From Candidatus Adlerbacteria bacterium (GTDB lineage Bacteria > Patescibacteriota > Minisyncoccia > Phycocordibacterales > SBAW01): a stretch of 35,929 bases of DNA. Under the pieces are notes generated by a model that did no database searches, was not told where the DNA came from, and was given only the letters and a program-made list of their open reading frames with translations. Below are positions 14,779-32,061 of this stretch, piece by piece; the stretch's first letter is position 1; the number at the start of each line of letters is the position of its first letter. Location of the stretch: contig CAINNF010000009.1 in the NCBI GenBank assembly GCA_903851045.1, positions 70,525 to 106,453 on the forward strand, written 5' to 3'. The translations under genes were made by a program, and so were the position numbers.

Positions 14779-16059
14779 ATGGCAAAACAATTGGTCTGGT
14801 CAACGGAGCGGCGGCGTCTCGGCAACCTCGTTCCACATAAGTTTAACCCGAGATTAGCAACGGAGAAATTCAAGCAGACCCTTACCCGGCTGCTGAAGAA
14901 GTTCGGATTAGTCGAAATCCCAGCGATAGATCTCGATGGTGGAATTCTGGCTGGTCACCAGAGAATCGCTGCTCTGCTCGCTCTCTATGGTCCTGATTAC
15001 GAAATAGAGGTACGGGTTCCAAGTCGCCGCCTGACTGAATCAGAGCGAAACGAATATTTGCTCGCAAGCAACCGCGCCCACGCGGACTGGTCATACGAAC
15101 TCCTCGCGGAACACTTCGATATTGGGACAATGCTCATGTCGGGCTTCGACGACAACGACCTCTCAGTCATCTTCGCCGACTCGCTTGAAGTGACTGATGA
15201 TGTGTTTGACATAAACGCTGAGTTGAAAAAAATAAAGAAACCGAAAGCGAAGCTTTGGGACATGTACGCCCTTGGGCCGCATAGATTAATTTGCGCAGAC
15301 TCACTTAATCCAGAAACGGTAAAAAAATTGGTCGGTAAAACTAAAATCGATATGATTTATTGCGACACAATTTACAATCTGGATTTGGACTACAACGGCG
15401 GAGTGGGCGGAAAAGCAAGTTATGGCGGCACGGTGCAGGATCTCAAACCGGACACTGAGTATCGCACTTTCCTAAGGCGCTCGATGGAGAACGCTCTCTC
15501 AGTCGCTAAACCGGATTGCCACGCCTATTACTGGTGTGATCAGACATACATAGGAATGGTGCAGGACTTATTCCGTGAACTTGGACTTGAGAACAAGCGG
15601 GTATGTATGTGGGTAAAAGGGTCGGCAAATCCGACACCTGGCATTGCCTACAATAAATGCTACGAGCCCTGTGTTTATTCCACACGCGGGATACCCTATC
15701 TTTCGCCGGTGGCACTTAACTTTGCCGAAGTGCTCAACAAAGAATTGGGACCCTCCGGTAACAAACTCTTCGACGATATTCACGACCTTATAGATATATG
15801 GCTCACGAAGCGTATTTCCGGCTCAGAGTACCAACACGCCACCCAGAAGCCCGTAACGCTGCATGAGCGCCCTATAAAGCGCTGTACGAAGCCGGGCGGC
15901 ACGATACTAGATTTGTTTGGGGGGAGCGGGTCGACGCTCATCGCCGCAGACGCCATGAAGCGAGTGTGCTTTATGTCTGAAATCGAACCCGTCTTTATTG
16001 ACCTCATCATCGCAAGATATGAACACGCAACTGGCACGAAAGCCCGCAAGCTCAATTAA
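14779..16059 (+). CDS. ParB-like domain fused to DNA methyltransferase
   Basis: 426 aa, a common phage architecture. An N-terminal ParB/sulfiredoxin-like domain (about 14-110; LVPHKFNPR, ILAGHQRIAALL) precedes an N6-adenine/N4-cytosine methyltransferase domain (about 155-425). The SAM-binding FGGSGST motif is clear (ILDLFGGSGST). The catalytic DPPY motif appears as CDTIYN, with both prolines replaced, so activity is in doubt although Asp and Tyr remain. Phage enzymes of this kind protect genomes from restriction. Its 3' end overlaps the next methyltransferase gene by about 40 bases. Confidence 0.85.
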   Translation: MAKQLVWSTERRRLGNLVPHKFNPRLATEKFKQTLTRLLKKFGLVEIPAIDLDGGILAGHQRIAALLALYGPDYEIEVRVPSRRLTESERNEYLLASNRAHADWSYELLAEHFDIGTMLMSGFDDNDLSVIFADSLEVTDDVFDINAELKKIKKPKAKLWDMYALGPHRLICADSLNPETVKKLVGKTKIDMIYCDTIYNLDLDYNGGVGGKASYGGTVQDLKPDTEYRTFLRRSMENALSVAKPDCHAYYWCDQTYIGMVQDLFRELGLENKRVCMWVKGSANPTPGIAYNKCYEPCVYSTRGIPYLSPVALNFAEVLNKELGPSGNKLFDDIHDLIDIWLTKRISGSEYQHATQKPVTLHERPIKRCTKPGGTILDLFGGSGSTLIAADAMKRVCFMSEIEPVFIDLIIARYEHATGTKARKLN

Positions 16060-16792
16060 ACTGGGTACGATTTGGCAGCTTGGCGATCATCGTCTCGCGT
16101 ATGGCGACTGTCGTGATGAGAAGTTGTTACAGCGCCTCATAGGCAAAGACAAGGTCAGTTTAATTTGTGCAGACGTCCCGTATGGGGTTGGTGTGGTTGA
16201 GTCGAAGCGAAACTTCCAGACCCTCTCCAAGGACAAGGTAATCCAAAACGACCAACTGCAATCCGATGTAGAGTACGCTGCCTTCAGCCAGGCATGGCTC
16301 AATGCGGTCAAACCCTTCCTCGCCAAAAAGAACGCCACATACATCTTCAACGCAGACAAAATGATTTGGCCTCTGCATGAGGGCATCATCAACGCTGGAT
16401 TCAAATTCGCACAACTGCTCATCTGGGTTAAATCCCAATCGGTCATTGGACGACTCGACTATGCTCCCCAGCACGAACTAATCTTTTACGGCTGGTACGG
16501 TACCCATCACTTCCGCCGCTCCAAGGATAAATCGGTGCTGTTCTACCCGCGTCCGTCTAAAAGCAAATTGCACCCTACGACAAAACCAGTCGGGTTAATA
16601 CGACGATTGATTTTGAACTCAACAAGCATTGGTGACGCGGTATATGACGGCTTTCTAGGGAGCGGTACGACCTTACTCGCGTGCGAGCAGACCAAGCGCC
16701 GTTGTTTTGCGATCGAGGTCGAGGAGGAGTATTGCCTGACCACCATACGTCGTTGGGAGCAACTTACTGGCCTTAAAGCAAAACGCGTATGA
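16019..16792 (+). CDS. Second DNA methyltransferase (N4/N6 type)
   Basis: 257 aa from ATG 16019; an upstream in-frame ATG at 15998 would overlap the previous gene further. The catalytic motif reads ADVPYG rather than DPPY, the SAM motif is YDGFLGSGTTLLA near the C-terminus, and HPTTKPVGLI is the usual conserved stretch between them. It lacks the ParB-like domain. Its stop overlaps the terminase small subunit start (ATGA at 16789-16792), so the two are translationally coupled. The target sequence cannot be told. Confidence 0.85.
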   Translation: MNTQLARKPASSIKLGTIWQLGDHRLAYGDCRDEKLLQRLIGKDKVSLICADVPYGVGVVESKRNFQTLSKDKVIQNDQLQSDVEYAAFSQAWLNAVKPFLAKKNATYIFNADKMIWPLHEGIINAGFKFAQLLIWVKSQSVIGRLDYAPQHELIFYGWYGTHHFRRSKDKSVLFYPRPSKSKLHPTTKPVGLIRRLILNSTSIGDAVYDGFLGSGTTLLACEQTKRRCFAIEVEEEYCLTTIRRWEQLTGLKAKRV

Positions 16793-17178
16793 GGGAGAGT
16801 AAACGGGCAAAAGAGTTGATGCTTGAGCAGCTGAAGAAAACTCCAATCGTACAAATTGCATGTGAGAAGGTTGGCCTGAGCCGCGTCTCCTTTTACAACT
16901 GGAAAAAGAGGGACAAAGAATTTGCCAAGCAAATAGACGACGCGCTGCTAGACGGCCGCTCGCTTGTGAATGACCTTGCGGAGAGCCAGCTCATAAACGC
17001 GGTTAAAGATCGCAACATCACCGCCATTGTTGCGTGGTTGAAGCACAATCATCCGAACTACAAGACCAAGGTGGAGATCGAGGGGCAACTTAACCTCATC
17101 GAGGAACTGTCACCTGAGCAGAAAGAGCTTGTGCGGAAAGCATTGGAATTAGCAGGTATGCAAATTAACAAATCTTAA
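16789..17178 (+). CDS. Probable terminase small subunit (phBC6A51-type HTH)
   Basis: 129 aa. An N-terminal helix-turn-helix (about 20-45; IACEKVGLSRVSFYNWKKRD) is followed by helical oligomerisation sequence (LVNDLAESQLINAVKDRN, then AWLKHNHPNY). Both are typical of phBC6A51-like small terminase or homeodomain-like phage proteins. Small subunits recognise the packaging site and recruit the motor. The position, overlapping the methyltransferase and 13 bp ahead of the large subunit, supports the call more than the sequence alone. Confidence 0.72.
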   Translation: MRESKRAKELMLEQLKKTPIVQIACEKVGLSRVSFYNWKKRDKEFAKQIDDALLDGRSLVNDLAESQLINAVKDRNITAIVAWLKHNHPNYKTKVEIEGQLNLIEELSPEQKELVRKALELAGMQINKS

Positions 17179-17191
17179 ATAAAAATTAAAC

Positions 17192-18715
17192 ATGAACAAT
17201 CCAATAACAGCAGGGTTCGACGACGCCTCGTTCGAGGCGATTACCAACGATCGACTCGTGCGGCAGGCAGTCGCACGCGAGAGCCACACCATGTTCTTCC
17301 ACCTCTACTTCCCGCACTACGTCCGCTACCCAATAGCGGAATTCCAAAAAGACATCTTCCGCATCACGGAGGACCAGTCAAACAAGCTGGCCTGCATCGT
17401 AGCCTTTCGCGGCTCGGGCAAGTCGACCTTGGTCACGTTCTCCTACTCACTGTGGGCAACGCTCGGGGTGCAACAGAAAAAGTTCGTACTAATCATCTGT
17501 CAAACTCAGGCGCAGGCCCGCCAGCACATGTCGAATCTCAAATATGAACTTGAACACAACAGACTTCTCAAGAGTGACCTAGGACCGTTTCGCGAGGACA
17601 CTAATACCGGCGAGTGGGCTATATCTTCGCTCGTATTTCAAAACACCGGCGCTCGTATCATGATCGCCTCTGTCGACCAAAGCATACGTGGCATACGACA
17701 CCACCAATACCGCCCCGACCTCCTGATACTGGACGACATCGAAGACATGCAATCAGCCAAGACATACGAAAGCCGCACCAAGCTTTTCGACTGGTTCTCG
17801 CGAGAAGTGATTCCGCTTGGCGACATCGGCACGCGAACTATTATCGTCGGCAACCTGCTCCATGAGGACGCACTGGTCATGAAGCTGCGCCGTATGATGG
17901 ATCGCAAAGAACTCAAAGGTACCTACTGCTGGTTTCCGCTCCTTAATGAGAGCGGCGAGTGCCTCTGGCCGGGCAAGTTCGATACCAAAGGAAAAATCGA
18001 AGATCTGCAAATGAGCGTCGCCAACGAGCTGGCATGGCGACAGGAATATCTTCTCGAAATTGTCGCTGACGCAACGCGCGTCGTCGACCCCAAGTGGATC
18101 CAGTATTACAAAGAGCTTCCAAAGTCGGGTACCATGCGCTACCGCGAAAGTTGCATCGGCATTGACCTGGCGATATCGGACAGCAAGAAAGCAGACAAGA
18201 CAGCAATGGTCGTGGGCCACGTGTACGGATACGGCGCAGAGATGCGTATCTATATTGCGCCCAAACCAGTCAACGAGCGCCTGAACTTCCCAGCAGCGCT
18301 TGAGCGGGCGAAGGCATTGTCCGCTACCATCATGCACAACGTGCGGGCCAAGCTCTTCATTGAGGACAATGCCTACCAGAAGGCGCTGCCGGAGATGATG
18401 CAAAAAGATGGGTACCCCGCAGTCGGCGTGACAGCGCAAGGTGATAAGCGGTCGCGCATTGTACTCATAAGCCCACTCATTAAAAACGGCATCGTGGTAT
18501 TCCCTGAGACCGGGTGCGAGGAATTACTCGCGCAGCTGACCGGGTTTGGGAGTGAATTGCACGATGACTTAGTAGATGCGCTATCGCTTCTGGTCTTGCA
18601 GGTATCGAAAGTCAACCAGCCATACACACCGTTCCCCAATCCGGATATAGGGAGGAGGCCAGAAGAAGGTAACGGCTACTCATCATTTTTTGGACGGCAC
18701 AGGACGAGGTTTTAG
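17192..18715 (+). CDS. Terminase large subunit (packaging ATPase-nuclease)
   Basis: 507 aa with both domains intact. The ATPase has Walker A AFRGSGKST (about 71-79) and Walker B LLILDDIED (about 174-182). The RNase H-like nuclease has an acidic residue in IGIDLAIS (about 322), another in LFIEDNAY (about 389) and the C-terminal HDDLVDAL (about 456). It should cut concatemeric DNA and pump it into a procapsid. No portal, protease or capsid gene follows; instead a minus-strand gene overlaps its 3' end. The length and motifs show no decay, so it is probably still selected for. Confidence 0.9.
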   Translation: MNNPITAGFDDASFEAITNDRLVRQAVARESHTMFFHLYFPHYVRYPIAEFQKDIFRITEDQSNKLACIVAFRGSGKSTLVTFSYSLWATLGVQQKKFVLIICQTQAQARQHMSNLKYELEHNRLLKSDLGPFREDTNTGEWAISSLVFQNTGARIMIASVDQSIRGIRHHQYRPDLLILDDIEDMQSAKTYESRTKLFDWFSREVIPLGDIGTRTIIVGNLLHEDALVMKLRRMMDRKELKGTYCWFPLLNESGECLWPGKFDTKGKIEDLQMSVANELAWRQEYLLEIVADATRVVDPKWIQYYKELPKSGTMRYRESCIGIDLAISDSKKADKTAMVVGHVYGYGAEMRIYIAPKPVNERLNFPAALERAKALSATIMHNVRAKLFIEDNAYQKALPEMMQKDGYPAVGVTAQGDKRSRIVLISPLIKNGIVVFPETGCEELLAQLTGFGSELHDDLVDALSLLVLQVSKVNQPYTPFPNPDIGRRPEEGNGYSSFFGRHRTRF

Positions 18716-18919: not shown

Positions 18920-18931
18920 GAGGCCATTTCA

Positions 18932-18961
18932 GCTTAGATTTGGGGACTTGCGAAGCGAGTT
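18932..18961 (+). repeat. Direct repeat, left copy, flanking nuclease cassette
   Basis: This 30-bp sequence matches 19705-19734 at 25 of 30 positions. All five differences are transitions. The shared core includes CTTGCGAAG. Between the copies lie only the nuclease gene and the hairpin row. Confidence 0.7.
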
Positions 18962-18970
18962 GTCGACACC

Positions 18971-19447
18971 TTACGCCCACCACGAATGCGTGCTGGTTTG
19001 GAATTCAAATACCTTGATGTCGGGGTCGGCGTAGTAGCGAGTCAACGCCTCGTCACTCATCTTCCACTGGTGAACCTCTTTAGTGTCATCGAGGATAGAT
19101 CGTAGCTTCGGTACGGAAAGAACGAAGCACACAATCTTATCCTTCATGTCAGAGACAATCGCAAAGTAGGGTTCGCAGTGAAATTGTTTGCAGGCAATCT
19201 CCGCCTTTTGAATATCCGACTCGTTTATGTTTATAGAGGCAGTCTCAGTGCCCGGACCGCGACTCCTGCTTTTAACGGAAATACCCATCACCTCATCTGA
19301 GTGGGGGTTACGGGCGATTAAGTCGATACCGGTGTGATCAACGCGGGCGCACTCAAAGCCGTGTTTGGAGAGCCAGTATAAAACTAGGTGCTCGGTGAAA
19401 TCACCGGTGATTTTTGAGTGTCTCGAGCTTTTGAGTATTTGCACCAT
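18971..19447 (-). CDS. PD-(D/E)XK nuclease-like protein
   Basis: 158 aa. The fold signature is GDFTEHLVLYWLSKHGF (Glu19), then HTGIDLIA (Asp42), then GISVKSRSRG (Lys59). This order of Glu, Asp and xxK is that of PD-(D/E)XK nucleases resembling PF11645 homing-type endonucleases and DUF4365-like proteins. The acidic residue before Lys59 is replaced by Ser57, which occurs in some active relatives. The start at ATG 19447 begins the conserved domain; the frame continues upstream into the hairpin region without similarity. An 8-bp inverted repeat overlaps this start codon. Function could be homing, restriction or repair; I cannot decide. Confidence 0.68.
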   Translation of the reverse strand: MVQILKSSRHSKITGDFTEHLVLYWLSKHGFECARVDHTGIDLIARNPHSDEVMGISVKSRSRGPGTETASININESDIQKAEIACKQFHCEPYFAIVSDMKDKIVCFVLSVPKLRSILDDTKEVHQWKMSDEALTRYYADPDIKVFEFQTSTHSWWA

Positions 19448-19463
19448 AGCGTGTGTATGGTGC
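19441..19463. promoter_or_regulatory. Inverted repeat across the nuclease start codon
   Basis: GCACCATA (19441-19448) and TATGGTGC (19456-19463) are perfect inverted copies with a 7-base loop. On the minus strand the hairpin would hold the start codon in its 3' arm, so it could limit translation as RNA or act as an autorepressor operator as DNA. Confidence 0.5.
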
Positions 19464-19692
19464 GGATTTTGTGGGGAACACAAAACCCGCCACCAGGAAG
19501 GCCTTGCGGCCTCTATGCAAGTTTCCCTGCATAACATGAAGCATGCCCTGAATGACGGGTTGTCTATGCTTCATGATTTGAGACCATGCCAACCGGAAAT
19601 CCGATTGGTTTAGGTCCTAGCTCCTTGCGGAGCGATATTCAATTGTTTGTACCCGAAAGGTACAAGAGCAATGATAGCAGAAAACGCTATCA
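19462..19692 (-). ncRNA. Candidate structured RNA: row of eight hairpins
   Basis: Eight consecutive stem-loops lie at 19462-19490 (12 bp), 19499-19512 (5 bp), 19514-19533 (6 bp), 19535-19575 (10 bp perfect, with a CCC/GGG inner stem), 19589-19608 (8 bp), 19620-19633 (5 bp), 19647-19665 (7 bp) and 19672-19692 (7 bp). On the minus strand the two imperfect positions (19466/19486 and 19593/19604) become G-U pairs, and two loops become GCAA (GNRA) tetraloops. Both points favour a minus-strand RNA lying between the tRNAs and the nuclease. No known RNA family is recognised. Confidence 0.55.
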
Positions 19693-19704
19693 CTTGGCAC
19701 CCTA

Positions 19705-19734
19705 GCTTAGGTTTGGAGGCTTGCGAAGTGGGTT
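19705..19734 (+). repeat. Direct repeat, right copy, flanking nuclease cassette
   Basis: Partner of 18932-18961 (25 of 30 identical). It runs straight into GTTACCAAC (19732-19740), the word that recurs at other module borders. Confidence 0.7.
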
Positions 19735-19753
19735 ACCAACAGCTGCTTATAGG

Positions 19754-20534: not shown

Positions 20535-23525
20535 CTATCCTTTAAATTCGATCTCACGAGTTTTCTTTCGAGTGTTGGCACGTTCGTACTCTCTTTGGGC
20601 AGATTCTTCAAAAGATTTTTTCATTCTGATGGCAAATGCTTTAGTTCGTGCATCTACCGATGATGCGTATGCTTCAAGCTGTTTTGCTTTCGCTTCGTAT
20701 GCTCGAGCTAAACCATCCTCGCCGGATACCACACCTGTAGCACCCATCGCTCCACCGATATGGTTCAAGATGTCTTCGTCATCAGTCCTTTTGACAATCT
20801 CAAAGCAGAGAGTGAAGTCGGCACCGTCAAATGCGTTCAGTGCATATGCGGCTTTCTCAAGAGTCGCCTTATCCGCATTCTCTATGAGATTTAAGAGTAT
20901 TGTCGAATATGACGCACCGCCAATCCTTTGAATAAAATGGGTAACGTTCCAGTTATATGTACTCCAATCGGGAGTCATATTTTTAAGCCATTCAACCATT
21001 TCAGCAACATACTCTTTATGCTCTGTAATGTACTTTTGTAAGTCAGGATTAAAGTGATAAGGGATGACTTCGTAGTGCTCCTCGCTATCCTTGTCCCTTT
21101 GTATTCTTTTCTTGAATACTTCTAAAATTATATGGATAGGTTCCGATGCTAATTCAAGCATCATCTCTTGAACATGCCAATCAAGGTCTCTCAACGAGAT
21201 CAATTCTGCTTGGATAAATTCAATTCCATCGGTGCTCCAGTCTTTAAACGACATCCACTTACGATGCGACGCAAAAGGTAATTCTCGAAAATACATGTTT
21301 AAGAACTTGGGATGGTCCCGCATCTCCTGAACAATCAACACCTCAATGCGAGCAGGATTCTTAGCAAAAATTCTCGTTAGTGTATTGAAAATCATGTACC
21401 GTGCAGGGAAATTTTCACCACCCACAAAGCCAAATGGCTCCTCTCCGGTCACTAGTCTTTCAAGTACTTTAATATCCTCCTCCCTAATTGATACCGCCAG
21501 ATCAGCTCCTGCATCTAAGTTTAAGGAAACCGCAATAGAACTGGCTAACACTGGCATCTTCTTTTTGCATATAATTGCAACAAAAGAATCCCATGATTGA
21601 AAGTCATTGATTCTCCTTAGGGTAGCGAGATATGCGGTTACGAATGGCTCTTGAGCAAGAGCAGACTGCTCTTCAGCGGCTTTTTCGAGAAGCTTCGTAG
21701 CTAAAGGTAATTTAACCTCAGTAAGGCGGGCAATGAGCAGTTTGAACGTGTTGTACTTCCACGCGTCTACAACCCCCTCTTGTAGTGGTTCTGCGAAGTC
21801 ATTCAATTTTTTATACCACCCTTCCAGTCCTTCCTCTGTTATTGTCGCAACGAGAGCTTTTACTTCCTCCGCTCTGCGTTTCTCTGCATCATTCCAGTCC
21901 TCATCAAGATTTCTGTATTCATGTATATCACCGACAAGCGTACAGAAAACCCCATAGTCGGCATCTGCTTGAAGGCGGTCATAAAGTGCTTGAGCCTCTG
22001 CACTTCTAAAACCTTCGCTTCTAAGTAAACGAATCAGAGCTTTTTCAATCTCCTGTGCGATTAAGTAGTTGCCTACCACTGATGATGGAAATACAAACTT
22101 TGACAGTACTTCTACCAGACGCTTACCATCTTCTCGAATCATTTCTTTTAGATCATCCCCATAAGCCACGTTATGCGGAGCTTCCAGAGCTGTAAGCAGA
22201 ACACGCACTAAGGCTACTCGCTCCTTGAGATCCGTTGATTGCTCGAACAATTCCACTACGAAATCAATGGTCTCTTGGCGCATCTTTTTCAATCCATCAT
22301 TCGGTACTAATGCTCCCGATGAAAACGTAAGCGTATCAGCACTACTCCATTCAGTACCCTCTACCTCGGAAGACAGGATCTCTTCTGCCGTTGCAGTGAT
22401 TGCTACGAAGTTCTTCTTGCGATCCTCCGGTGGAATCTTCTTTATAAATTCAAGTGCCGTCTTCTGGGGGTAGAGGTTTTTAAACCGCTTAATAAAAGTA
22501 TTGTTGTATTTAACTGTGTCTTTGATTGCCTTCATGGCTTCCTCGGAAATCTTTTTTGTCGGGTGCAATGCAAGCGAAAACAAAGAGGATAGTATTCTCT
22601 CGGTATTCCAATATCTAACATGAAACTGCTTTAAAATATCTACGCACTTTTCAAGCAGATTGTCCTTGCTCTTTCCAAACAGTTCTTTATCGACGAATTT
22701 ATGAATGACCTTAGGTTCGATGGGCGCACTCTTGATAGTCTCTTCCACCATTTGCACGGCCTCTTCCGGCTTCTTGTGTGAGAACTTGCTTGCTATATCA
22801 AGGATAGAGGCAATCTCGTCGTTTGACTGTGCGTTTCGTATATCGGAAAGAAAGTCAGAATAAATTACTTGTCCTGCGTGTAGTACTTCTTTGTGTTTTT
22901 TATGCAGTAAGTCAAATTGAATAGTGGCCTCCTCCAAGTGTTGAGCCATTATTTCTTGAAAAGAATTCTCAATATCATCTAGCCCTAAGCTTGCGAGCTT
23001 CTCTCGATCACCGCCGGGTTTATATATGACGTCATGCTCTATTTCAGACCATGCGTGGTAAAGGACGGACACAACCTGAACTTCGCATTTTAGCCCCTTA
23101 TATCGGGCATACTCGGGAAGCTTTTCCCTTGCTTCATCAAGGCGTAGAACAAAGTGTGTGCCCCTGTAACCTTTAGGGTCATATTTGTTCGTAACGTCAG
23201 GCTGGGAGCCTTCAAACTGTCGATAAATCAGGTTTTCCGCTTGGCTCTTATGGCTTTCAAGATACGTAACAACCCTCACTCCCGCCAGATCTTCAATATC
23301 CTCCAAAGCCTTATATATTATTCCTTCAGCTGCCTTTCTGACAACTTTCTCCTTAAGCCTTTCGGGGTCTTTTTCTCTACCGCTTATGCTGTAGATTTTT
23401 ATTTCTCCATTATCAAGAACCTCGCTAATGATTTTTTTAACGACTTCAGAAAAACTGTGGTAAAGCTGTCGTTTAGGCAGATACTCATCGCTTAGTTTAT
23501 CGGGTTTTTGGGTTTCTTCTGTCAT
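20535..23525 (-). CDS. RelA/SpoT nucleotide-synthetase domain with long helical tail
   Basis: 996 aa. The N-terminal 180 or so residues are a RelA/SpoT (PF04607-like) pyrophosphotransferase domain: ISGREKD (about 46-52), DLAGVRVV (79-86), YRGTH (120-124), CEVQVVSVLYHAW (147-159) and IEHDVIYK (162-169). The synthetase motifs look complete; no HD hydrolase domain, TGS or ACT domain is present. The remaining 800 residues are almost all helical, with a HEAT/ARM-like pattern and no named domain. It is far longer than small alarmone synthetases or CapRel-type toxins. The gene is 24 bp after the HsdM-HsdS stop, in the same operon. The product may be (p)ppGpp or (p)ppApp, or it may modify tRNA as some toxSAS enzymes do; the sequence cannot decide. 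Confidence 0.85.
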   Translation of the reverse strand: MTEETQKPDKLSDEYLPKRQLYHSFSEVVKKIISEVLDNGEIKIYSISGREKDPERLKEKVVRKAAEGIIYKALEDIEDLAGVRVVTYLESHKSQAENLIYRQFEGSQPDVTNKYDPKGYRGTHFVLRLDEAREKLPEYARYKGLKCEVQVVSVLYHAWSEIEHDVIYKPGGDREKLASLGLDDIENSFQEIMAQHLEEATIQFDLLHKKHKEVLHAGQVIYSDFLSDIRNAQSNDEIASILDIASKFSHKKPEEAVQMVEETIKSAPIEPKVIHKFVDKELFGKSKDNLLEKCVDILKQFHVRYWNTERILSSLFSLALHPTKKISEEAMKAIKDTVKYNNTFIKRFKNLYPQKTALEFIKKIPPEDRKKNFVAITATAEEILSSEVEGTEWSSADTLTFSSGALVPNDGLKKMRQETIDFVVELFEQSTDLKERVALVRVLLTALEAPHNVAYGDDLKEMIREDGKRLVEVLSKFVFPSSVVGNYLIAQEIEKALIRLLRSEGFRSAEAQALYDRLQADADYGVFCTLVGDIHEYRNLDEDWNDAEKRRAEEVKALVATITEEGLEGWYKKLNDFAEPLQEGVVDAWKYNTFKLLIARLTEVKLPLATKLLEKAAEEQSALAQEPFVTAYLATLRRINDFQSWDSFVAIICKKKMPVLASSIAVSLNLDAGADLAVSIREEDIKVLERLVTGEEPFGFVGGENFPARYMIFNTLTRIFAKNPARIEVLIVQEMRDHPKFLNMYFRELPFASHRKWMSFKDWSTDGIEFIQAELISLRDLDWHVQEMMLELASEPIHIILEVFKKRIQRDKDSEEHYEVIPYHFNPDLQKYITEHKEYVAEMVEWLKNMTPDWSTYNWNVTHFIQRIGGASYSTILLNLIENADKATLEKAAYALNAFDGADFTLCFEIVKRTDDEDILNHIGGAMGATGVVSGEDGLARAYEAKAKQLEAYASSVDARTKAFAIRMKKSFEESAQREYERANTRKKTREIEFKG

Positions 23526-23549: not shown

Positions 23550-25967
23550 TTATTCCTTCCAAAGCTTCGATAGGGCGTCTCTGGTCTTCTGTTCGTAGAT
23601 TTCAATCAGTTTTTTGCTACCCTGAATGAGGGTGCGTTCGGATTCAATACGCTCGGCGATTTTCTTTTGGATTTCCATAGGTGGGAGAGGAATCTCGTAT
23701 TCTTTAATCTGCTTCGGTGAGATATTTCCTTGAGCTCCACCACCCGCAGTCATCTGACAGTATTCATAAAATTCATCAGAAAATAAAATTGATTTCAAGA
23801 AATATTTTGAGAGCTTTTCTCCATCCGGCCTTACTAGACCGACACGTTGATTAAGAAACAAATTATCGAATTGCGAAACGGCAACCTTACCGACCGTCGC
23901 TCCGGTCATGGCAATAAGTATGTCGTCTTTATTAACGATAAACTTATCTAGTGACTTAGTATGTGAAAAATATTGTGCATCCTCAATTTCAACTTCTCCA
24001 TTTTTGCCAACATTTCCTATTTTAACCACAGGTAGGTCAGTGTCGGCAGATTTTCCATTTTTCAATTCTTCACTCTTAAACGCATAGCCGCCAACAAAAT
24101 CAACAACGTCGCCCAGCTTCGTCTTCTTCCACTCTGGATCGATGTCAATTTTGGGTTTCCAGTTTTGGGTAATTTGCTTGGCACCCGTGATAATGCTTTG
24201 GTAGCTGTCCAACTCCTTCACTATCAGCTTCTGAACTTCAAGCGGAGGAAGGGGAACTTTTATAGACCGTAGTTTTTCTTGATTTAACTTTGGAACTGTC
24301 ACGCCGGTTATGAATGGAGATAGGTCGATATTGTTTAAGTAGGAAACGAGAAATGTATCGATCATCTTCTCCTTTATTGGACGAACAACATGGGCGTGGT
24401 TATTGACCCAATATTTACCTTCTGCAATAAAAGCAGTCCTGTCTCCTATGTCCCACTTTGCACCATCCTCTCCAATTAAAACCAACCTTTCATCAAAAAT
24501 GTAGTCGTGGACATGATCCAGAATACCCGTGGCTCCGTAGTATGGAAACGGACCTGCTTTCCTGTCAGATTTCGTTATCGGTTTTCTCTTGTTGTCTAAA
24601 ATATCAACTACGTCACCGAGTTCTACCATCGGCCACTTTGCGTTTGCGTAATTGGTTGTTAAACGATAGCGATCACCAGACAGATTATAGTCGCCAGTTT
24701 CGGCAATTATTGTTTTCGCAACGTAGGTGCCTTTGTCATTGTCTACTTTCTTTCCTCTTTTCCAATTGTTTAAAATATCGAGGGCATCTGGTAGATCATT
24801 TTTATTGCTCGCTCGCTTGGTTGCACCCAAGTCAAAGCCGTCGTTCTCGATTTTCACAAACAAAATCTCTTTGCTTTGTTTTGCCAATTCGTTGTTAAAC
24901 AAAAGAATGCTTGTTTTTACACCGCTGTAAGGCTGGAATACCCCCGATGGCAAGCTGATTACCGCATACAGCCCATCCTCTACTAGATTCTTGCGTAGTT
25001 GCTTATGTGCCGTGCCGGATTGAAAGATAATGCCCTCGGGCACGATAACAGCCGCACGTCCCTGTGGTCGTAGGTGGTTCATGATGTAGTCAACGAACAG
25101 CACTTCGGACCGAGTAGACTCTATGCTGAATTTGCTATGGGTACTGACACCGCCTTTTGGCGACATAAATGGTGGGTTGGCCAGGATTACAGAAAACTTA
25201 TCACCCCATCGCTCATCCATGGAAAGGGTGTCGTAGTTGAATATCTTTGGATTCTTGAACTGGTGCAGGTACATGTTGACCTGTGCGATACGGACCATGC
25301 CGGGGTCTATGTCGTAGCCTTCAAAATTACCCATCAGGTTTTTGCGTTGATCGGGTGTGAGTGGCTTTTCAATGTGTTGCTTCAATATGTGTTTGTAGGT
25401 ACTCACTAAGAAGCCACCAGTGCCACATGCAGGGTCTAGCACCTTATCCTCCATGGTTGGGTCTACGACTTCCACCATAAAATCAATGATGTGGCGTGGA
25501 GTACGGAACTGCCCAGCATCGCCTTGAGACGACATAATAGAAAGCAGGTACTCATACGCATTACCCAATTCCTCGGGGTGTGAGTAGTCAAAATAATCGA
25601 TTTCTTTCAAAAACAAGCCAAGCACTTCAGGACTTCGGTACGGCAGAAACGCTGACTTAAAAATCTCACGGAAGAGTTGGGGTAGCTGTTTTGATTCGGA
25701 AAACTTTACAAGTGCTTCGCTGTAGATGTTCATTCGTTCTTGATTCCCGATTCGGGCATCCATAAGACGAGTCCATGCGTATTGCTCTAGGTTACCGACG
25801 AAGAATGAGGGGTCGCCACCTTGCTTGATAGCAGACTGGTCCATATCATCCATGAATTTGTAGATGAGGGCGTTCGTGATTTGATCTATTTGTGAAGTTG
25901 GATTAGGAACAACACCAACAAGAACTTGGCGAGCGGCATCTATGTGATTTTTTGTTTGAGTGTTCAT
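23550..25967 (-). CDS. hsdM: Type I restriction HsdM-HsdS fusion
   Basis: 805 aa combining modification and specificity subunits. The methyltransferase part (about 1-440) has the N-terminal helical HsdM domain, SAM motif DPACGTGGF (about 177-185) and catalytic NPPF (about 263). Two HsdS-type target recognition domains follow: TRD1 about 450-600 (WPMVELGDVVDIL) and TRD2 about 615-800 (WKKTKLGDVVDFVGG, then DDILIAMTGATVGKVA). Each ends in a coiled-coil-like helix. It should methylate adenines in a bipartite site and guide HsdR. It starts 4 bp after the HsdR stop. The fusion is rarer than separate hsdM and hsdS genes. Confidence 0.93.
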   Translation of the reverse strand: MNTQTKNHIDAARQVLVGVVPNPTSQIDQITNALIYKFMDDMDQSAIKQGGDPSFFVGNLEQYAWTRLMDARIGNQERMNIYSEALVKFSESKQLPQLFREIFKSAFLPYRSPEVLGLFLKEIDYFDYSHPEELGNAYEYLLSIMSSQGDAGQFRTPRHIIDFMVEVVDPTMEDKVLDPACGTGGFLVSTYKHILKQHIEKPLTPDQRKNLMGNFEGYDIDPGMVRIAQVNMYLHQFKNPKIFNYDTLSMDERWGDKFSVILANPPFMSPKGGVSTHSKFSIESTRSEVLFVDYIMNHLRPQGRAAVIVPEGIIFQSGTAHKQLRKNLVEDGLYAVISLPSGVFQPYSGVKTSILLFNNELAKQSKEILFVKIENDGFDLGATKRASNKNDLPDALDILNNWKRGKKVDNDKGTYVAKTIIAETGDYNLSGDRYRLTTNYANAKWPMVELGDVVDILDNKRKPITKSDRKAGPFPYYGATGILDHVHDYIFDERLVLIGEDGAKWDIGDRTAFIAEGKYWVNNHAHVVRPIKEKMIDTFLVSYLNNIDLSPFITGVTVPKLNQEKLRSIKVPLPPLEVQKLIVKELDSYQSIITGAKQITQNWKPKIDIDPEWKKTKLGDVVDFVGGYAFKSEELKNGKSADTDLPVVKIGNVGKNGEVEIEDAQYFSHTKSLDKFIVNKDDILIAMTGATVGKVAVSQFDNLFLNQRVGLVRPDGEKLSKYFLKSILFSDEFYEYCQMTAGGGAQGNISPKQIKEYEIPLPPMEIQKKIAERIESERTLIQGSKKLIEIYEQKTRDALSKLWKE

Positions 25968-25971
25968 ATTC

Positions 25972-28533
25972 TTAATTCATAAAGGTATTCAGAGAGACGT
26001 AGTCTTTGATATACGTCGGGACCGTGGTCTTAAAACCGTTGAGCCGTTGATATTCCTCGAAGTCAAAAGACGCACAGAAATGAAGTTGTGCGAGTTGTTT
26101 CGTATCAATAATTTCTCGAACCTGCGGATCGGCAATGTAGGCCTTGAAAAAGCTCTTTACTGGTGCGAAGTGCTCTTGGTCTACTGGATTCACTTCTGTG
26201 AATTTGCTCCACTCTGACTCAAGTAGTTCGTCTTTGGATTCAAAGCCGCTCTTTTGACCAAAGGCAACCTGCAGGAACTCACGGATAGTGATACGACGAT
26301 CAACGTTAAATGTCTTCCTTATGCCTTGCAGATTGAGGTAATGGTTCGGCTTGTCAAAGATGTTCGTCTTCGTATAGTCTTCGGCTCCCGCTACATCTCC
26401 ATTGTCCCAGAGGCTTTTTAATGTGTCATTGGCGAGTACGTCTTCCTCGACTGCACGCTTGAAGCCTTCACGATCAACACGCATACCGTCGGTGCCAATA
26501 TGTTTTTCTGAAATAGAGGCAATATCGTCATCTGTGGCCAGATCAATAGGACCCTTGAAAACATTGGTGCCGCCTTCATCTACGAAGATATCTGTACTAC
26601 CGGACCCTCCCGTGGAATCTGTTTCTTTTATTTTCTTAATCTTCGGTATCTTTATTTTCTCGTCATACTCAAACTCGTTCTCGAAGTATTCGCATGTGGC
26701 AAAAAAGTCAAAGAACTTAAAATGTTCCTTTGGTTCAGTAACAGTTTCTTTTGTGGCGTAGTCTCTATACTCAAATAAGTATTTTCGTGTGCCTCGTCCT
26801 TTTATCTGCACGAACTCCGCAGGACTGAACACGGGACGCATCAATGCGAGGTTTAAGATGTCTTGGCAGTCATAACCTGTGGTCATCATCCCCACAGTTA
26901 CTGCTACACGGGTCTTAGTGGAATCGTAACCTTCGGGGCTATTAACCTTGCCGTTGAGCATATTGTTGGAGAAGTTGATCGTCATCTGTTGTGCGGTTGG
27001 GACTTGCGAAGTCACCTGTACGGCAAAATTTGATTCATTGTATTGTTCCGGCCATCTTTCAAATGCGAGTTTGTTCAATATGTTTGTAACTCTTGTGGCA
27101 TGTTTTTGAGACACGCAGAAGACAATTGATTTACCAAATAAATCAACATCATATTTCTTTGCAACAGGGTCAAAGAGACCATTATCGATGAACGCCTTGC
27201 ACATAGCGATGTTAGTTTCCTCATTGAAGAACTTGCGCTCGTAGTGTCGCTCGTTAAAAACTTCGTTTATTGTTTCTCCTTGCTCTGTTGTTGAATGGGC
27301 AGCATAGCCATCAGTCGAAAGGAGCTCTGTGGTAATTTCTGTACGGGCGTCTACCACAATAGGGTTAATGAGGAAGCCATCTTTAACACCTGAAAGTAGG
27401 TCGTAACTAAAGGTTGGTTCGCTCGGCTTGCATCCAAAAGTTTTGTACGTATCAAGCAATTGCCTACGTTCAAATTCTCTTTGAGAGTCCGCATCCTCAC
27501 CATCAAATCCCTTGAGATAGTCTTTGGGGGTAGCAGTAAGCCCGAGCTTGTAGCCAACGAAATACTCAAATACTGCTCGGCTATTACCACCAATAGATCT
27601 GTGGGCCTCATCTGAGATCACCATTTCAAAATCTGTGGGAGAGAACTCTTTTTTATATCTATCACCGGCGAGAAAAGTCTGAATGGTAGACACAACAACC
27701 TGCGCATTACGCCATGAATCACGACTGTCTTTATAGATAACGCTTGTGTAGTCTTTGCCGATATATTGCTTGAAAGCTTTATGTGCCTGTTCTTCAAGTT
27801 CTATACGATCCACAAGGAATAAGACACGGCGTGCGTTGCCCGACTTGAGAAAGAGTTTTATTACTGCGGCAGAAATCAAAGTCTTACCAGTACCGGTTGC
27901 CATTTCAAAAAGAAATCTGTTTTTATTTTCAAGTGCCGCAGATTGCAGACTCTTGATTGCGCCTACTTGGTAGGGACGCATCTGTTTCAGGTTGTTGTTG
28001 CGAAAGAATTCTTGCCTCTTTGATTCGTCTTGAAAATCAGGGTCATTAGCGTAGCCGGGCATCTGTGATTCAATGATGTAATTCTCGTCTACTTTTGTAT
28101 TGGCAAGCTCTATAGGATTTGGGATGTATTTTTCATACTGCGTAATAGAGTCTTGTGTGGGGAAACGGGAGATGGTGTCAGGATTGCCATGCTTCGTATC
28201 CCAAAAATAATGAATGTTGCCATTTGAAAGGATGATGAAGCGAGCATTCACATTACGAGCGTAATTTCTGGCCTGCTCTTTCGCAGAAAGCGGATCAATC
28301 GATTCTTTTTTTGCTTCGACCACGACAAGGGCACGTCCGTCTTTATCGAGAAGTAAGAAGTCTATGTATCCTTTTGAAACATTTTCAAAATCTTCACCGA
28401 GGTCTGCGAGCATCACGCCGGGCTCAAGCTGTATGTTCATGGGGCCGTTCTTGTCTGCCTCAAAACGCCACCCTGATTCCTCAAGGAGTTTGTTTATCTT
28501 TATTCGAGCTGAAGCTTCTTTGGATTGCGTCAT
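25972..28533 (-). CDS. hsdR: Type I restriction endonuclease subunit HsdR
   Basis: 853 aa. The N-terminal nuclease domain has YIDFLLLDKDGRALVVVEAKK (PD-(D/E)XK, about residues 55-76). The SF2 translocase motor follows: Walker A MATGTGKT (about 210), DEAH (about 307), LGLTATP, and motif VI QIKGRGTRKY. A C-terminal helical domain would bind HsdM. It should translocate and cut unmodified DNA. It is in the order R then MS, which differs from the R-M-S and M-S-R orders often seen. The start at 28533 is 4 bp after the HTH gene stop. Confidence 0.95.
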   Translation of the reverse strand: MTQSKEASARIKINKLLEESGWRFEADKNGPMNIQLEPGVMLADLGEDFENVSKGYIDFLLLDKDGRALVVVEAKKESIDPLSAKEQARNYARNVNARFIILSNGNIHYFWDTKHGNPDTISRFPTQDSITQYEKYIPNPIELANTKVDENYIIESQMPGYANDPDFQDESKRQEFFRNNNLKQMRPYQVGAIKSLQSAALENKNRFLFEMATGTGKTLISAAVIKLFLKSGNARRVLFLVDRIELEEQAHKAFKQYIGKDYTSVIYKDSRDSWRNAQVVVSTIQTFLAGDRYKKEFSPTDFEMVISDEAHRSIGGNSRAVFEYFVGYKLGLTATPKDYLKGFDGEDADSQREFERRQLLDTYKTFGCKPSEPTFSYDLLSGVKDGFLINPIVVDARTEITTELLSTDGYAAHSTTEQGETINEVFNERHYERKFFNEETNIAMCKAFIDNGLFDPVAKKYDVDLFGKSIVFCVSQKHATRVTNILNKLAFERWPEQYNESNFAVQVTSQVPTAQQMTINFSNNMLNGKVNSPEGYDSTKTRVAVTVGMMTTGYDCQDILNLALMRPVFSPAEFVQIKGRGTRKYLFEYRDYATKETVTEPKEHFKFFDFFATCEYFENEFEYDEKIKIPKIKKIKETDSTGGSGSTDIFVDEGGTNVFKGPIDLATDDDIASISEKHIGTDGMRVDREGFKRAVEEDVLANDTLKSLWDNGDVAGAEDYTKTNIFDKPNHYLNLQGIRKTFNVDRRITIREFLQVAFGQKSGFESKDELLESEWSKFTEVNPVDQEHFAPVKSFFKAYIADPQVREIIDTKQLAQLHFCASFDFEEYQRLNGFKTTVPTYIKDYVSLNTFMN

Positions 28534-28950: not shown

Positions 28951-30624
28951 ATGTCATCTAACACACTGCTGAAGTTGAAGTATTGCCTCTATGCGCGTAA
29001 GTCTATGGAGGCTGAAGAGCGGCAGGCGCTCTCGATAGATTCGCAGATTAAGGAAATGCGTGGGATTGCCGAGCGAGACAATCTCTTTATCTCCGCAGTA
29101 CGCACTGAATCGCACTCCGCTAAGGACTCCGGTGAACGCCCTGTGTTTAATCGGATTCTCCAAGAGGTACGTTTGGGCCGATACAACGCATTACTCACCT
29201 GGGCACCCGATCGCCTAAGCCGGAATGCGGGCGATCTCGGAAGACTCGTAGACATGATGGACAGTCAACATCTTCTTGAGATACGCACGTTCAATCAATG
29301 CTTTACCAACTCACCAAACGAGAAGTTCCTGCTCATGATTCTCGGCAGCCAAGCGAAGCTAGAGAATGATAACCGAGGAATTAACGTGAAGCGCGGACTG
29401 CGAGCGCTCGTTGCGCGTGGTCATTGGCCGGGCGTGCCTCCCATTGGCTACGAGTGTGATGAGCGCAAAGATTATCGAGGAAGGCTTAGAGTGGATGTTC
29501 GCCGAGCCCCCGTCATCAAACAAATGTTTGAGAAGGCAGCCGAGGGTATGAGCTATCGCAAAATCTGCCACTGGCTCAAAACTGAGTTGGACTTCAAATC
29601 TCCCAACAACAAGCACATCACCCTGAGTATGACCCAGTTAACCATCGCCAAACCATTCTATTACGGTGAATTCGAGTATCCTCGGGGAAGCAAGAACTGG
29701 TACAAGGGCAGCCATACTCCCATCATCACCAAAGAGCTGTACGACAAAGCTCAAAAAGAGCTGGCCAAGCGGCGACACATCAAAAGTATCTTCCGCAGGA
29801 ATCTCGCCTATACCAAGCTGATGAAATGCGGCTTGTGCGGTTCAGGAATCTGTGGTGAAGAAAAGTACAAAGAATTGAAAAACGGGTCCATATCCAAATA
29901 CACCTACTATGGCTGCACCCGCGCACGAAACCGCTATTGCGAACTCACCTATATTCGCGAAGACGTACTCGTCGATCAGCTCCGCGAACTTGTAGACTCA
30001 CTCAGTATTGATGAGCTCGGCGTACGTGGACAGTTGGATGTGGAAGTGGACCGCATGTACCGCTTCCATCGCGATGTCATGGGACAGGCAGAAGGATATG
30101 AAAATGGCGAGCAGCGAGATATCGACGTGAAAGCGTATGTGAAGTACCTACTCCGCGAAGGTACGATTGAAGAAAAACGCCATGTACTGCTAAACCTAAA
30201 AAGTAAATTGATTGTTAAAGATGGGAAGGTGTACATGGCGGAGACTGTCCCTCAAGAAGAAACCCCCGAACCAGCATCCCCTGAAAAGGCAATCATATTA
30301 GAGATTGAAGTGAATGATCCGCATTTTGACAGGCATATCATGGGTCCCGAACGGTTGGAGGTTGATGAGCCACGAGAACTTCCGGGAGGATTCCAGCTGG
30401 TCTATAACGGACAGGATCTTCCTCAGACCAGGAAACAGGGCACCTTATTCCACTTCGCAATGATCTATACGGGTGAAGTGAACGTTGCTGAAACGGTTGA
30501 GTTGCTGTTCGAGTATCTCTTTCAGAAGCGCGACGTTATTAAGCGTATGCGGGTAAATCGTCGGGAGATTCGGATAGATAAAATGGAATTCTCAAAAGTC
30601 CTCAGTGAGGAAATTCGGGTTTAA
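28951..30624 (+). CDS. Large serine recombinase 1
   Basis: 557 aa. The resolvase N-terminal catalytic domain has YCLYARKS (Ser18 as nucleophile, Arg16) and APDRLSRN. A Recombinase domain (PF07508) and a zinc ribbon near 290-330 (CGLCGSGICGEEK, then YGCTRARNRYC) follow. Compared with the neighbouring recombinase it carries an extra C-terminal stretch of about 130 residues (after KDGKVYMAETV) with no recognised domain. It should integrate or excise a mobile element through short att cores. The ATG 28951 lacks a clear ribosome-binding site. Confidence 0.93.
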   Translation: MSSNTLLKLKYCLYARKSMEAEERQALSIDSQIKEMRGIAERDNLFISAVRTESHSAKDSGERPVFNRILQEVRLGRYNALLTWAPDRLSRNAGDLGRLVDMMDSQHLLEIRTFNQCFTNSPNEKFLLMILGSQAKLENDNRGINVKRGLRALVARGHWPGVPPIGYECDERKDYRGRLRVDVRRAPVIKQMFEKAAEGMSYRKICHWLKTELDFKSPNNKHITLSMTQLTIAKPFYYGEFEYPRGSKNWYKGSHTPIITKELYDKAQKELAKRRHIKSIFRRNLAYTKLMKCGLCGSGICGEEKYKELKNGSISKYTYYGCTRARNRYCELTYIREDVLVDQLRELVDSLSIDELGVRGQLDVEVDRMYRFHRDVMGQAEGYENGEQRDIDVKAYVKYLLREGTIEEKRHVLLNLKSKLIVKDGKVYMAETVPQEETPEPASPEKAIILEIEVNDPHFDRHIMGPERLEVDEPRELPGGFQLVYNGQDLPQTRKQGTLFHFAMIYTGEVNVAETVELLFEYLFQKRDVIKRMRVNRREIRIDKMEFSKVLSEEIRV

Positions 30625-30672
30625 TCTTTCAGATACTCAAGGCTCAATCTCACCCAAACTCTGGACATTAAA

Positions 30673-30681
30673 GTTACCAAC
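30673..30681 (+). repeat. GTTACCAAC word between the two recombinase genes
   Basis: GTTACCAAC is also at 19732-19740 and 28780-28788, with TTACCAAC at 13391-13398, all on the plus strand at module borders. The 28780 and 30673 copies extend to 13 of 15 identical bases (GTTACCAACTYCRAG) and bracket recombinase 1. It is a candidate att core. Confidence 0.4.
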
Positions 30682-30729
30682 TTCGAGGCCTTTAGGACGC
30701 TCTGGACTCCTACCCCCGTTGCGTCATCA

Positions 30730-32061
30730 ATGGTGTGTATGCAAACCACAACAAGGGCTCCCTTAGGAGGCATTAACAGGCTACCTCCCCAAGAAGCGCC
30801 CGTAATCAAGTACTGCCTGTACGCAAGAAAGAGCACAGAGGAAGAGGATAAGCAGGCTCTCTCCATAGAGTCGCAAGTCCGGGAGATGACGAGATTAGCA
30901 GAAAAAGACGGCCTCAATATAGTGGAGGTAAAGCGCGAGTCGCACTCCTCCAAAGAGGTGGGCCAGCGGCCGGTATATAACGAGCTGCTGGCCGAAATTA
31001 GAACCGGCAAGTTTAACGGCATCCTGACGTGGGCACCGGATCGCCTGAGCCGCAACGCCGGAGACCTTGGCGCGGTAGTGGACCTACTCGATCAGAAAAA
31101 GCTCCTAGAAATACGCACTTACACGCAGAAGTTCACCAACAACCCGAACGAGAAGTTTATGCTGATGATTCTCGGTTCGCAGGCGAAGCTGGAGAACGAT
31201 CAAAAAATCATCAACGTAAAGCGCGGCCTGCGGGCTCGCTGTGAGATGGGCTGGCGGCCGAGTACCGCGCCGACCGGCTACCTCAGCGAGAAACATGTCG
31301 ACAAGAAGTGCCAGGTGCGCCTCGACCCAAAACGTTCCATCCTAATACGTCAGATATTTGAGAAGGTTGGCAACGAAGAGTGGAGCGGACGACAGACCTA
31401 CAAATGGCTTACCAAAACCGGCTTCAAGACCCGAAATGCAAAGAAGCTCTCACTCGCTAATCTATACACGATTCTGCGCAACACCTTTTACTACGGCGAA
31501 TTCGAGTACCCGGCCGGAAGCGACAATTGGTATCAGGGCAAGCATCAACCCATAATCACAAGAGAGTTGTTCGACAGGACACAAGCAAATTTACAAGACC
31601 ATTACATACCTAAAACCGAGAGCAAGGAATTTGCCTTCACGAAGCTGATAAAGTGCGGCTACTGCGAGAGCGGCATAACCGCCGACGAGAAGTTCAAGAA
31701 ACTAAAAGATGGCGGCGTGAACCGCCATGTCTATTATATGTGTACGAGAGCGAAAGATACCGACTGCAAGAATCAGGCCGTCAACGAGAAAGACCTCATC
31801 GAGGAATTGAGTGGGCTGCTGGAGACAATTGATCTCGACGAGATTGGCATGAGGGCTAAAATCGAGGAGGAGGTGGCGCGGTACAACAAATTCCGAATAG
31901 GCGTCCTTGGGATGAAAACAAAGGATCGCAACAGTGCCATAGAGGTACGCAACTACGCGAAGTACTTACTCAAGGAAGGAACTATTACTGAGAAGCGCGA
32001 GCTGCTAGCATGCCTCAAGAGCACGCTAGTGCTTAAGGATAGAAAGGTAACACTGCAGTAA
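30730..32061 (+). CDS. Large serine recombinase 2
   Basis: 443 aa from ATG 30730 (ATG 30739 also possible). The catalytic Ser35 is in YCLYARKS, followed by APDRLSRNAGDLG, a Recombinase domain and a zinc ribbon (CGYCESGITADEK, then YYMCTRAKDTDC). It is clearly homologous to recombinase 1 over the full length but ends at KDRKVTLQ, without the extension. Many synonymous and residue differences show this is not a recent duplication; the two probably came with separate elements. It converges on the TM-protein gene with no gap (stop at 32061, next stop at 32062). Confidence 0.93.
   Translation: MVCMQTTTRAPLGGINRLPPQEAPVIKYCLYARKSTEEEDKQALSIESQVREMTRLAEKDGLNIVEVKRESHSSKEVGQRPVYNELLAEIRTGKFNGILTWAPDRLSRNAGDLGAVVDLLDQKKLLEIRTYTQKFTNNPNEKFMLMILGSQAKLENDQKIINVKRGLRARCEMGWRPSTAPTGYLSEKHVDKKCQVRLDPKRSILIRQIFEKVGNEEWSGRQTYKWLTKTGFKTRNAKKLSLANLYTILRNTFYYGEFEYPAGSDNWYQGKHQPIITRELFDRTQANLQDHYIPKTESKEFAFTKLIKCGYCESGITADEKFKKLKDGGVNRHVYYMCTRAKDTDCKNQAVNEKDLIEELSGLLETIDLDEIGMRAKIEEEVARYNKFRIGVLGMKTKDRNSAIEVRNYAKYLLKEGTITEKRELLACLKSTLVLKDRKVTLQ

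Follow-up and report, generated by a model that had tools for sequence, protein, structure and literature searches.

The stretch of DNA analysed here (the window, 35,929 nucleotides in full) contains a row of closely spaced hairpins at 19441-19692, which raises the question of what these hairpins are, on which strand they act and what they might do. A sequence-only reading of the window had proposed selection on a minus-strand RNA made downstream of tRNA-Phe and tRNA-Arg, with an architecture that it did not recognise. The hairpins are indeed present. The minus-strand RNA from 19435 to 19750 folds at -127.1 kcal/mol, with z = -7.5 relative to dinucleotide shuffles, whereas the plus strand of the same region reaches z = -4.3 against such shuffles, so the structure is well above chance and prefers the minus strand. 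The minus-strand fold contains six G-U pairs, where two had been counted before, and three GNRA loops (GCAA in P0, GAAA in P4 and GCAA in P5) instead of two GCAA loops.

The architecture of the row is not new, because it belongs to the known family LOOT. In a cmscan search, 19498-19616 on the minus strand matches Rfam RF03000 over its full length (model positions 1-121, 84 bits, E 1.2e-14; gathering cut-off 46.4 bits), and the alignment contains the conserved P1 internal loop, P3, P4 with its GAAA loop, and P5. LOOT and the tRNAs were the only Rfam families above cut-off in the window, and weaker matches were taken as chance. Rfam gives the type of RF03000 as 'Gene; sRNA' and assigns it no function. 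No match was found to known repetitive palindromic elements, which had been named as one of the findings that would speak against a selected RNA. Repetitive extragenic palindromes would be expected in many near-identical copies, whereas the genome of the window (1.25 Mb in 25 contigs) holds six divergent copies of LOOT.

Position and promoter of the LOOT copies

We collected 188 copies of LOOT, of which 185, from Patescibacteria and phages, were used; because they were found with the Rfam model, very divergent copies are missed. The distribution is patchy, with LOOT in 13 of the 35 genomes of the genus, in 124 of the 297 sampled in the order and in 83 of the 380 sampled in the phylum, at up to 7 copies per genome. 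An independent set was drawn from named records found by a DNA pattern and chosen for one P1 type, CCUAAACC. Almost all named records with a confirmed LOOT are Patescibacteria (Kaiser-, Nomura-, Taylor-, Zambryski- and Saccharibacteria and others) or unnamed bacteria. A model built in this analysis did not confirm the pattern matches seen outside Patescibacteria, in Burkholderia, Bacillus and others.

Most copies of LOOT are followed by a gene. A frame of at least 60 aa with an ATG 15-110 nt 3' of LOOT, on the same strand, was found in 169 of 185 copies, compared with 68 of 183 at a control position at +400 and 20 of 183 at -330. The spacing from LOOT to the ATG has a median of 55 nt, and the independent set agrees, with such a frame in 44 of 51 copies (control, 14). 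On the other side, a 5' motif resembling ACAACUGAAUA precedes 141 of the 185 copies, mostly by 10-30 nt, against 25 at the control position. Ahead of this motif, 112 copies have a -10-like box, at a spacing of 6, 7 or 8 nt in 88 of them, as expected if transcription starts at the motif. A hairpin plus T-run between LOOT and the ATG occurs in only 6 of 177 copies. Position and promoter spacing thus place LOOT in the 5' UTR of a same-strand coding gene, and together with the rarity of terminators they mean that LOOT is best read as the 5' leader of an mRNA with its own promoter, against its label as an sRNA. Terminator-like hairpins with T-runs between LOOT and ATG are seen in L016, L021, L073, L096 and L129, and termination of transcription may be how part of the LOOT leaders work.

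The hairpins of the window are most likely the 5' leader of a 158-aa gene at 18971-19447. The RNA probably does not derive from the tRNA transcript, as the sequence-only reading had it, and would start from its own -10-like box at 19671-19676. Read 5' to 3' on the minus strand, the parts of this leader are as follows.

19672-19692 (-): palindrome TGATAGC...GCTATCA, overlapping the -10 box
19671-19676 (-): -10-like box TATCAT, extended TGCTATCAT, inside the palindrome 19672-19692
19647-19665 (-): 5' hairpin UUGUACC...GGUACAA, near the transcript start, whose position is predicted
19636-19646 (-): conserved 5' motif ACAAUUGAAUA, family consensus ACAACUGAAUA
19620-19633 (-): optional P0 hairpin GCUCCGCAAGGAGC with a GCAA loop, between the 5' end and LOOT
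19498-19616 (-): LOOT core, RF03000 positions 1-121 (cmscan)
19582-19616 (-): P1 with internal loop CCUAAA/CAUGG (from the alignment), a putative likeness of the 11-nt GAAA receptor
19535-19575 (-): P3 hairpin, 5' arm CAUGAAGCAU and 3' arm AUGCUUCAUG, with a loop that pairs with S
19513-19534 (-): P4 hairpin with a GAAA tetraloop, near-invariant in the family
19499-19512 (-): P5 hairpin with a GCAA tetraloop, a loop that varies in the family
19476-19497 (-): S segment, able to pair with D or, at -27.0 kcal/mol, with 19547-19568 (loop and 5' arm of P3)
19462-19473 (-): segment D
19462-19490 (-): S:D hairpin of 12 bp, GCGGGUUUUGUG/CACAAAAUCCGC, -16.4 kcal/mol
19441-19463 (-): start-codon hairpin GCACCAUA...UAUGGUGC, which holds the AUG of the downstream gene
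18971-19447 (-): gene that the leader would control, 158 aa, with a G[IV]D...[IV]xVK motif

The palindrome at 19672-19692, because the -10-like box lies within it, is probably promoter DNA outside the RNA. Similar palindromes, placed where an operator might be, precede LOOT in L002, L005, L010, L020 and L025. Between its -10-like box and the conserved 5' motif, the window copy has the 5' hairpin at 19647-19665, which, among the copies inspected, is common to the window and L005 alone. P0 also occurs in several other copies.

A helix beyond the Rfam model

Directly 3' of the Rfam model, and absent from its structure, lies a segment of 22-24 nt, S, that can form about 17 bp with the P3 loop. The pairing is specific to each copy: own pairs of S and P3 average -28.3 kcal/mol and swapped pairs -17.8 kcal/mol, and none of 2000 permutations was as good, in a statistic that, like our other permutation statistics, treats the copies as unrelated although they are related. 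In the independent set, the corresponding values are -25.8 and -17.6 kcal/mol. In a 43-sequence alignment, 91.6% of the cells in the main 17-pair helix are paired, and 10 of its pairs have changed on both sides. Taking all 19 pairs, 88.5% of cells are paired, compared with 43-57% for slid versions of the helix, and 77 cells carry double changes, compared with 23 in shuffles. The helix has one conserved mismatch, mostly A.C (unpaired in 32 of 43 sequences), and several conserved U.G pairs. P1, P3, P4 and P5 covary as well. An Rfam search and a covariation check on homologues were among the steps that the sequence-only reading had suggested, and the full-length match and the covarying helices both back its view that a minus-strand RNA is under selection.

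The P3 loop is shorter than 30 nt and offers no geometric room for a helix of 17-19 bp. A full loop helix that coexists with a closed P3 was rejected on this geometric argument, so P3 and S:P3 are probably mutually exclusive alternatives. The covariation of S:P3, combined with its exclusion of P3, suggests a folding switch. In the window, the S:D hairpin is a further competitor, both of S:P3 and of the start-codon hairpin.

The window copy shares P1, P3, P4, P5 and the P4 GAAA loop with RF03000, and the differences are that the Rfam model stops before S and that LOOT appears here as a leader, whereas its Rfam type is sRNA. The S:P3 helix, the leader position, the promoter spacing and the copied gene starts described below are absent from the Rfam model and from PMC7657543, PMC7779021 and PMC11701678, in which LOOT appears in structure statistics or a figure only; the 2017 discovery paper may hold remarks on gene association.

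Gene starts and a candidate leader switch

Forty-six of the 185 copies (score of at least 10) carry, as the 5' arm of P3, a direct copy of the sequence at the start of their own gene, where swapped pairs give an expectation of 2.6. The copied stretch mostly ends 0-7 nt before an ATG or includes the ATG. For example, L043 has AAGTCCTATCAAGCA in P3 and again before ATGATA, and L081 has CAAAACCAGTCACGGT in P3 and again before ATGCCT. Because the 5' arm copies the gene start, the P3 3' arm would be able to pair with the start and block it, and this pairing reaches -12 kcal/mol or lower in 54 of 160 copies (7.4 expected). A set of related methyltransferase genes (L027, L028, L047, L081 and L112) has four clearly different starts, each of which matches its own P3. 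The start copy is commoner with a P1 of CCUAAC or CCUACC (28 of 71) than with CCUAAA (18 of 114; p = 4e-4). The independent set, with its single P1 type, barely exceeds chance in this respect, with 2 at score 10 against 0.7 (permutation 105/5000).

Three quarters of LOOT copies have no start copy, and the window copy is one of them, with a pairing of -6.6 kcal/mol between its P3 3' arm and the start. A trans-acting target for its P3 arm is ruled out within its own genome, where, with up to 2 mismatches allowed, the arm matches nothing but the copy from which it comes. In the window, the ATG at 19445-19447 lies inside the hairpin at 19441-19463, whose 5' arm overlaps D. The predicted fold gives the AUG an unpaired probability of 0.002 without S and 0.877 with S, and the largest gain obtained with a shuffled S was 0.015. 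S is thus predicted to open the start-codon hairpin, a prediction made for the window copy alone. Family-wide, opening of the start through S:D is weakly above chance (occluded starts, 22 versus 14; gain above 0.5, 9 versus 4.7), and the mean effect of S over all copies is nil.

We propose that LOOT forms the basis of a cis leader switch that controls the start of the downstream gene, a reading to which we give a probability of roughly two in three. The sequences themselves show the family match, the leader position, the spacing of the promoter and the S:P3 helix, as well as the start copy in a quarter of the family; what we infer is that the helices exclude each other, which way the switch turns, the docking and the existence of a signal. 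In the ON state, P3 would be intact, S would pair with D and the start codon would be free. In the OFF state, S would invade the P3 loop and pair with the loop and the 5' arm (about 17-20 bp), which would open P3 and leave the start blocked. The block would differ between classes. Where P3 carries the start copy, the freed P3 3' arm, being complementary to the start region, would cover it; in the other copies, including that of the window, the freed D would fold over the start codon. Among the competing pairings, S:P3 shows strong covariation, the start copy is confined to the 46 copies and start occlusion is weak across the family.

For the start-copy class, the summed energies are about -47 kcal/mol for the OFF set (S:P3 plus P3 3' arm:start) and about -34 kcal/mol for the ON set (P3 plus S:D), with no penalty included for the crossing fold. 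Since the energies favour OFF, a newly made RNA may begin in the ON state and, depending on a signal, either stay in it or pass to OFF. The classical 11-nt receptor for GAAA tetraloops is CCUAAG/UAUGG, with a G.U pair. LOOT resembles this system in its P4 loop (GAAA in 167 of 170 parsed copies; the P5 loop, by comparison, is variable) and in its P1 internal loop, CCUAA...AUGG. It differs in having A.C (or C with UAUGG or CAAGG) in place of G.U, the variants being CCUAAA/CAUGG or CCUAAC/UAUGG. Given the near-invariant GAAA loop and the receptor-like P1, docking of P4 onto P1 is a reasonable expectation, and the docked pair would probably serve as scaffold or core of a putative sensor.

Other explanations must be weighed against this switch. 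LOOT could be a free-standing sRNA that merely tends to sit upstream of genes, with the S helix closing the molecule. The Rfam type, the compact fold with its own promoter and the lack of a shared function among downstream genes would all fit. We nevertheless find this quite unlikely, given that a same-strand ATG follows at short distance in 91% of copies, that 171 of 177 copies have no terminator before it, that one copy in four repeats the sequence of its own gene start in P3, and that the P3 arm of the window has no second site in its own genome. A non-switch leader, acting as a stable cap to shield the mRNA or to fix the translation level of cargo genes, is unlikely. It would share the leader position, the diverse genes and the strong constant structure, and S:P3, favoured by the summed energies, could simply be its final fold. 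However, a plain stabiliser needs no competing specific helices, and the overlapping P3, S:P3, S:D and P3 3' arm:start pairings each show own-versus-swapped specificity or covariation, which counts against it.

The hairpins might instead act as DNA, with LOOT and its gene forming a mobile cassette and the repeats serving as recombination signals. An element of about 45 bp lies on both sides of LOOT plus gene in the window (18928-18968 and 19699-19742) and recurs in many copies upstream of LOOT and in several behind the stop codon; moreover, large serine integrases or recombinases make up 10 of the 53 divergent upstream genes scanned. Yet the LOOT helices carry the traits of RNA on one strand (G-U pairs, the GAAA loop, covariation), the flanking element, which is distinct from LOOT, surrounds a non-LOOT gene in one contig, and mobility would account for the spread of LOOT, not for its fold. 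We regard this explanation as very improbable. What does sit awkwardly with a common regulator such as the proposed switch is that regulators usually precede related genes, and LOOT genes are very diverse.

Downstream genes, mobile elements and known systems

The 177 downstream proteins fall into 117 clusters, 97 of them singletons, and no common protein family was found among them. Among them are DNA methyltransferases, nucleases, GIY-YIG-like and zinc-ribbon proteins; many belong to no family. The 158-aa protein of the window has no Pfam or PHROG match and no relatives in IMG/VR or in the genus; its motif makes it a putative PD-(D/E)XK-like nuclease.

The neighbours of LOOT genes suggest mobile elements, as in the case of the divergent recombinases above. 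One IMG/VR contig with LOOT has portal, head and endolysin genes, and another has an integrase and a LOOT gene that matches a moron family. In the window, genes for a ParB-methyltransferase, a methyltransferase and the small and large terminase (14779-18715, plus strand) adjoin the LOOT gene and are probably a prophage near tRNA-Arg and tRNA-Phe. We tentatively suggest, at somewhat less than even odds, that signal-responsive LOOT leaders travel with the cargo genes of Patescibacteria phages and integrative elements, and that one class tailors itself to each gene through the start copy in P3, so that the same switch would serve unrelated genes.

Since the discovery study of 2017, LOOT has reportedly remained a family without an assigned function. 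The 185 Patescibacteria copies suggest a leader role, the S:P3 helix and the copied start region as new features, which would turn an orphan filed as an sRNA into a concrete candidate switch at mRNA 5' ends. If true, largely uncultured Patescibacteria and their phages would have a regulatory system for newly arrived genes, and its modular, gene-by-gene fitting could serve synthetic regulators.

Riboswitches and other cis leaders offer a comparison in mode of action: LOOT is likewise a 5' leader with a compact conserved domain, with overlapping helices that may exclude one another and with varied downstream platforms (predicted start occlusion, and a few terminator-like copies). Unlike riboswitches, LOOT precedes genes that share no pathway, has no known ligand, and carries a part that, in about a quarter of copies, repeats the sequence at the start of the gene behind it. 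In hok-type mRNAs, metastable refolding lets competing leader helices gate the start region. LOOT has similar competing helices at the start, and its more stable fold is likewise predicted to be the silent one, but it has no antitoxin RNA, no common toxin gene and a different structure.

The flanking element of about 45 bp (CTGTTGGTAACTC..CTTCGCAA...CTAAGCTAAGGT; minus strand in the window) is present in about 27 copies, either upstream of LOOT by 26-83 nt or shortly after the stop of its gene, and in L339 it flanks a gene without LOOT. It may be a cassette recombination site or an upstream promoter element. Elsewhere in the window, two adjacent large serine recombinases (28951-32061, plus strand) lie beside a type I restriction-modification locus (23550-28533), and a 996-aa protein with an N-terminal RelA/SpoT-like domain (20535-23525, minus strand) adjoins the restriction-modification genes.
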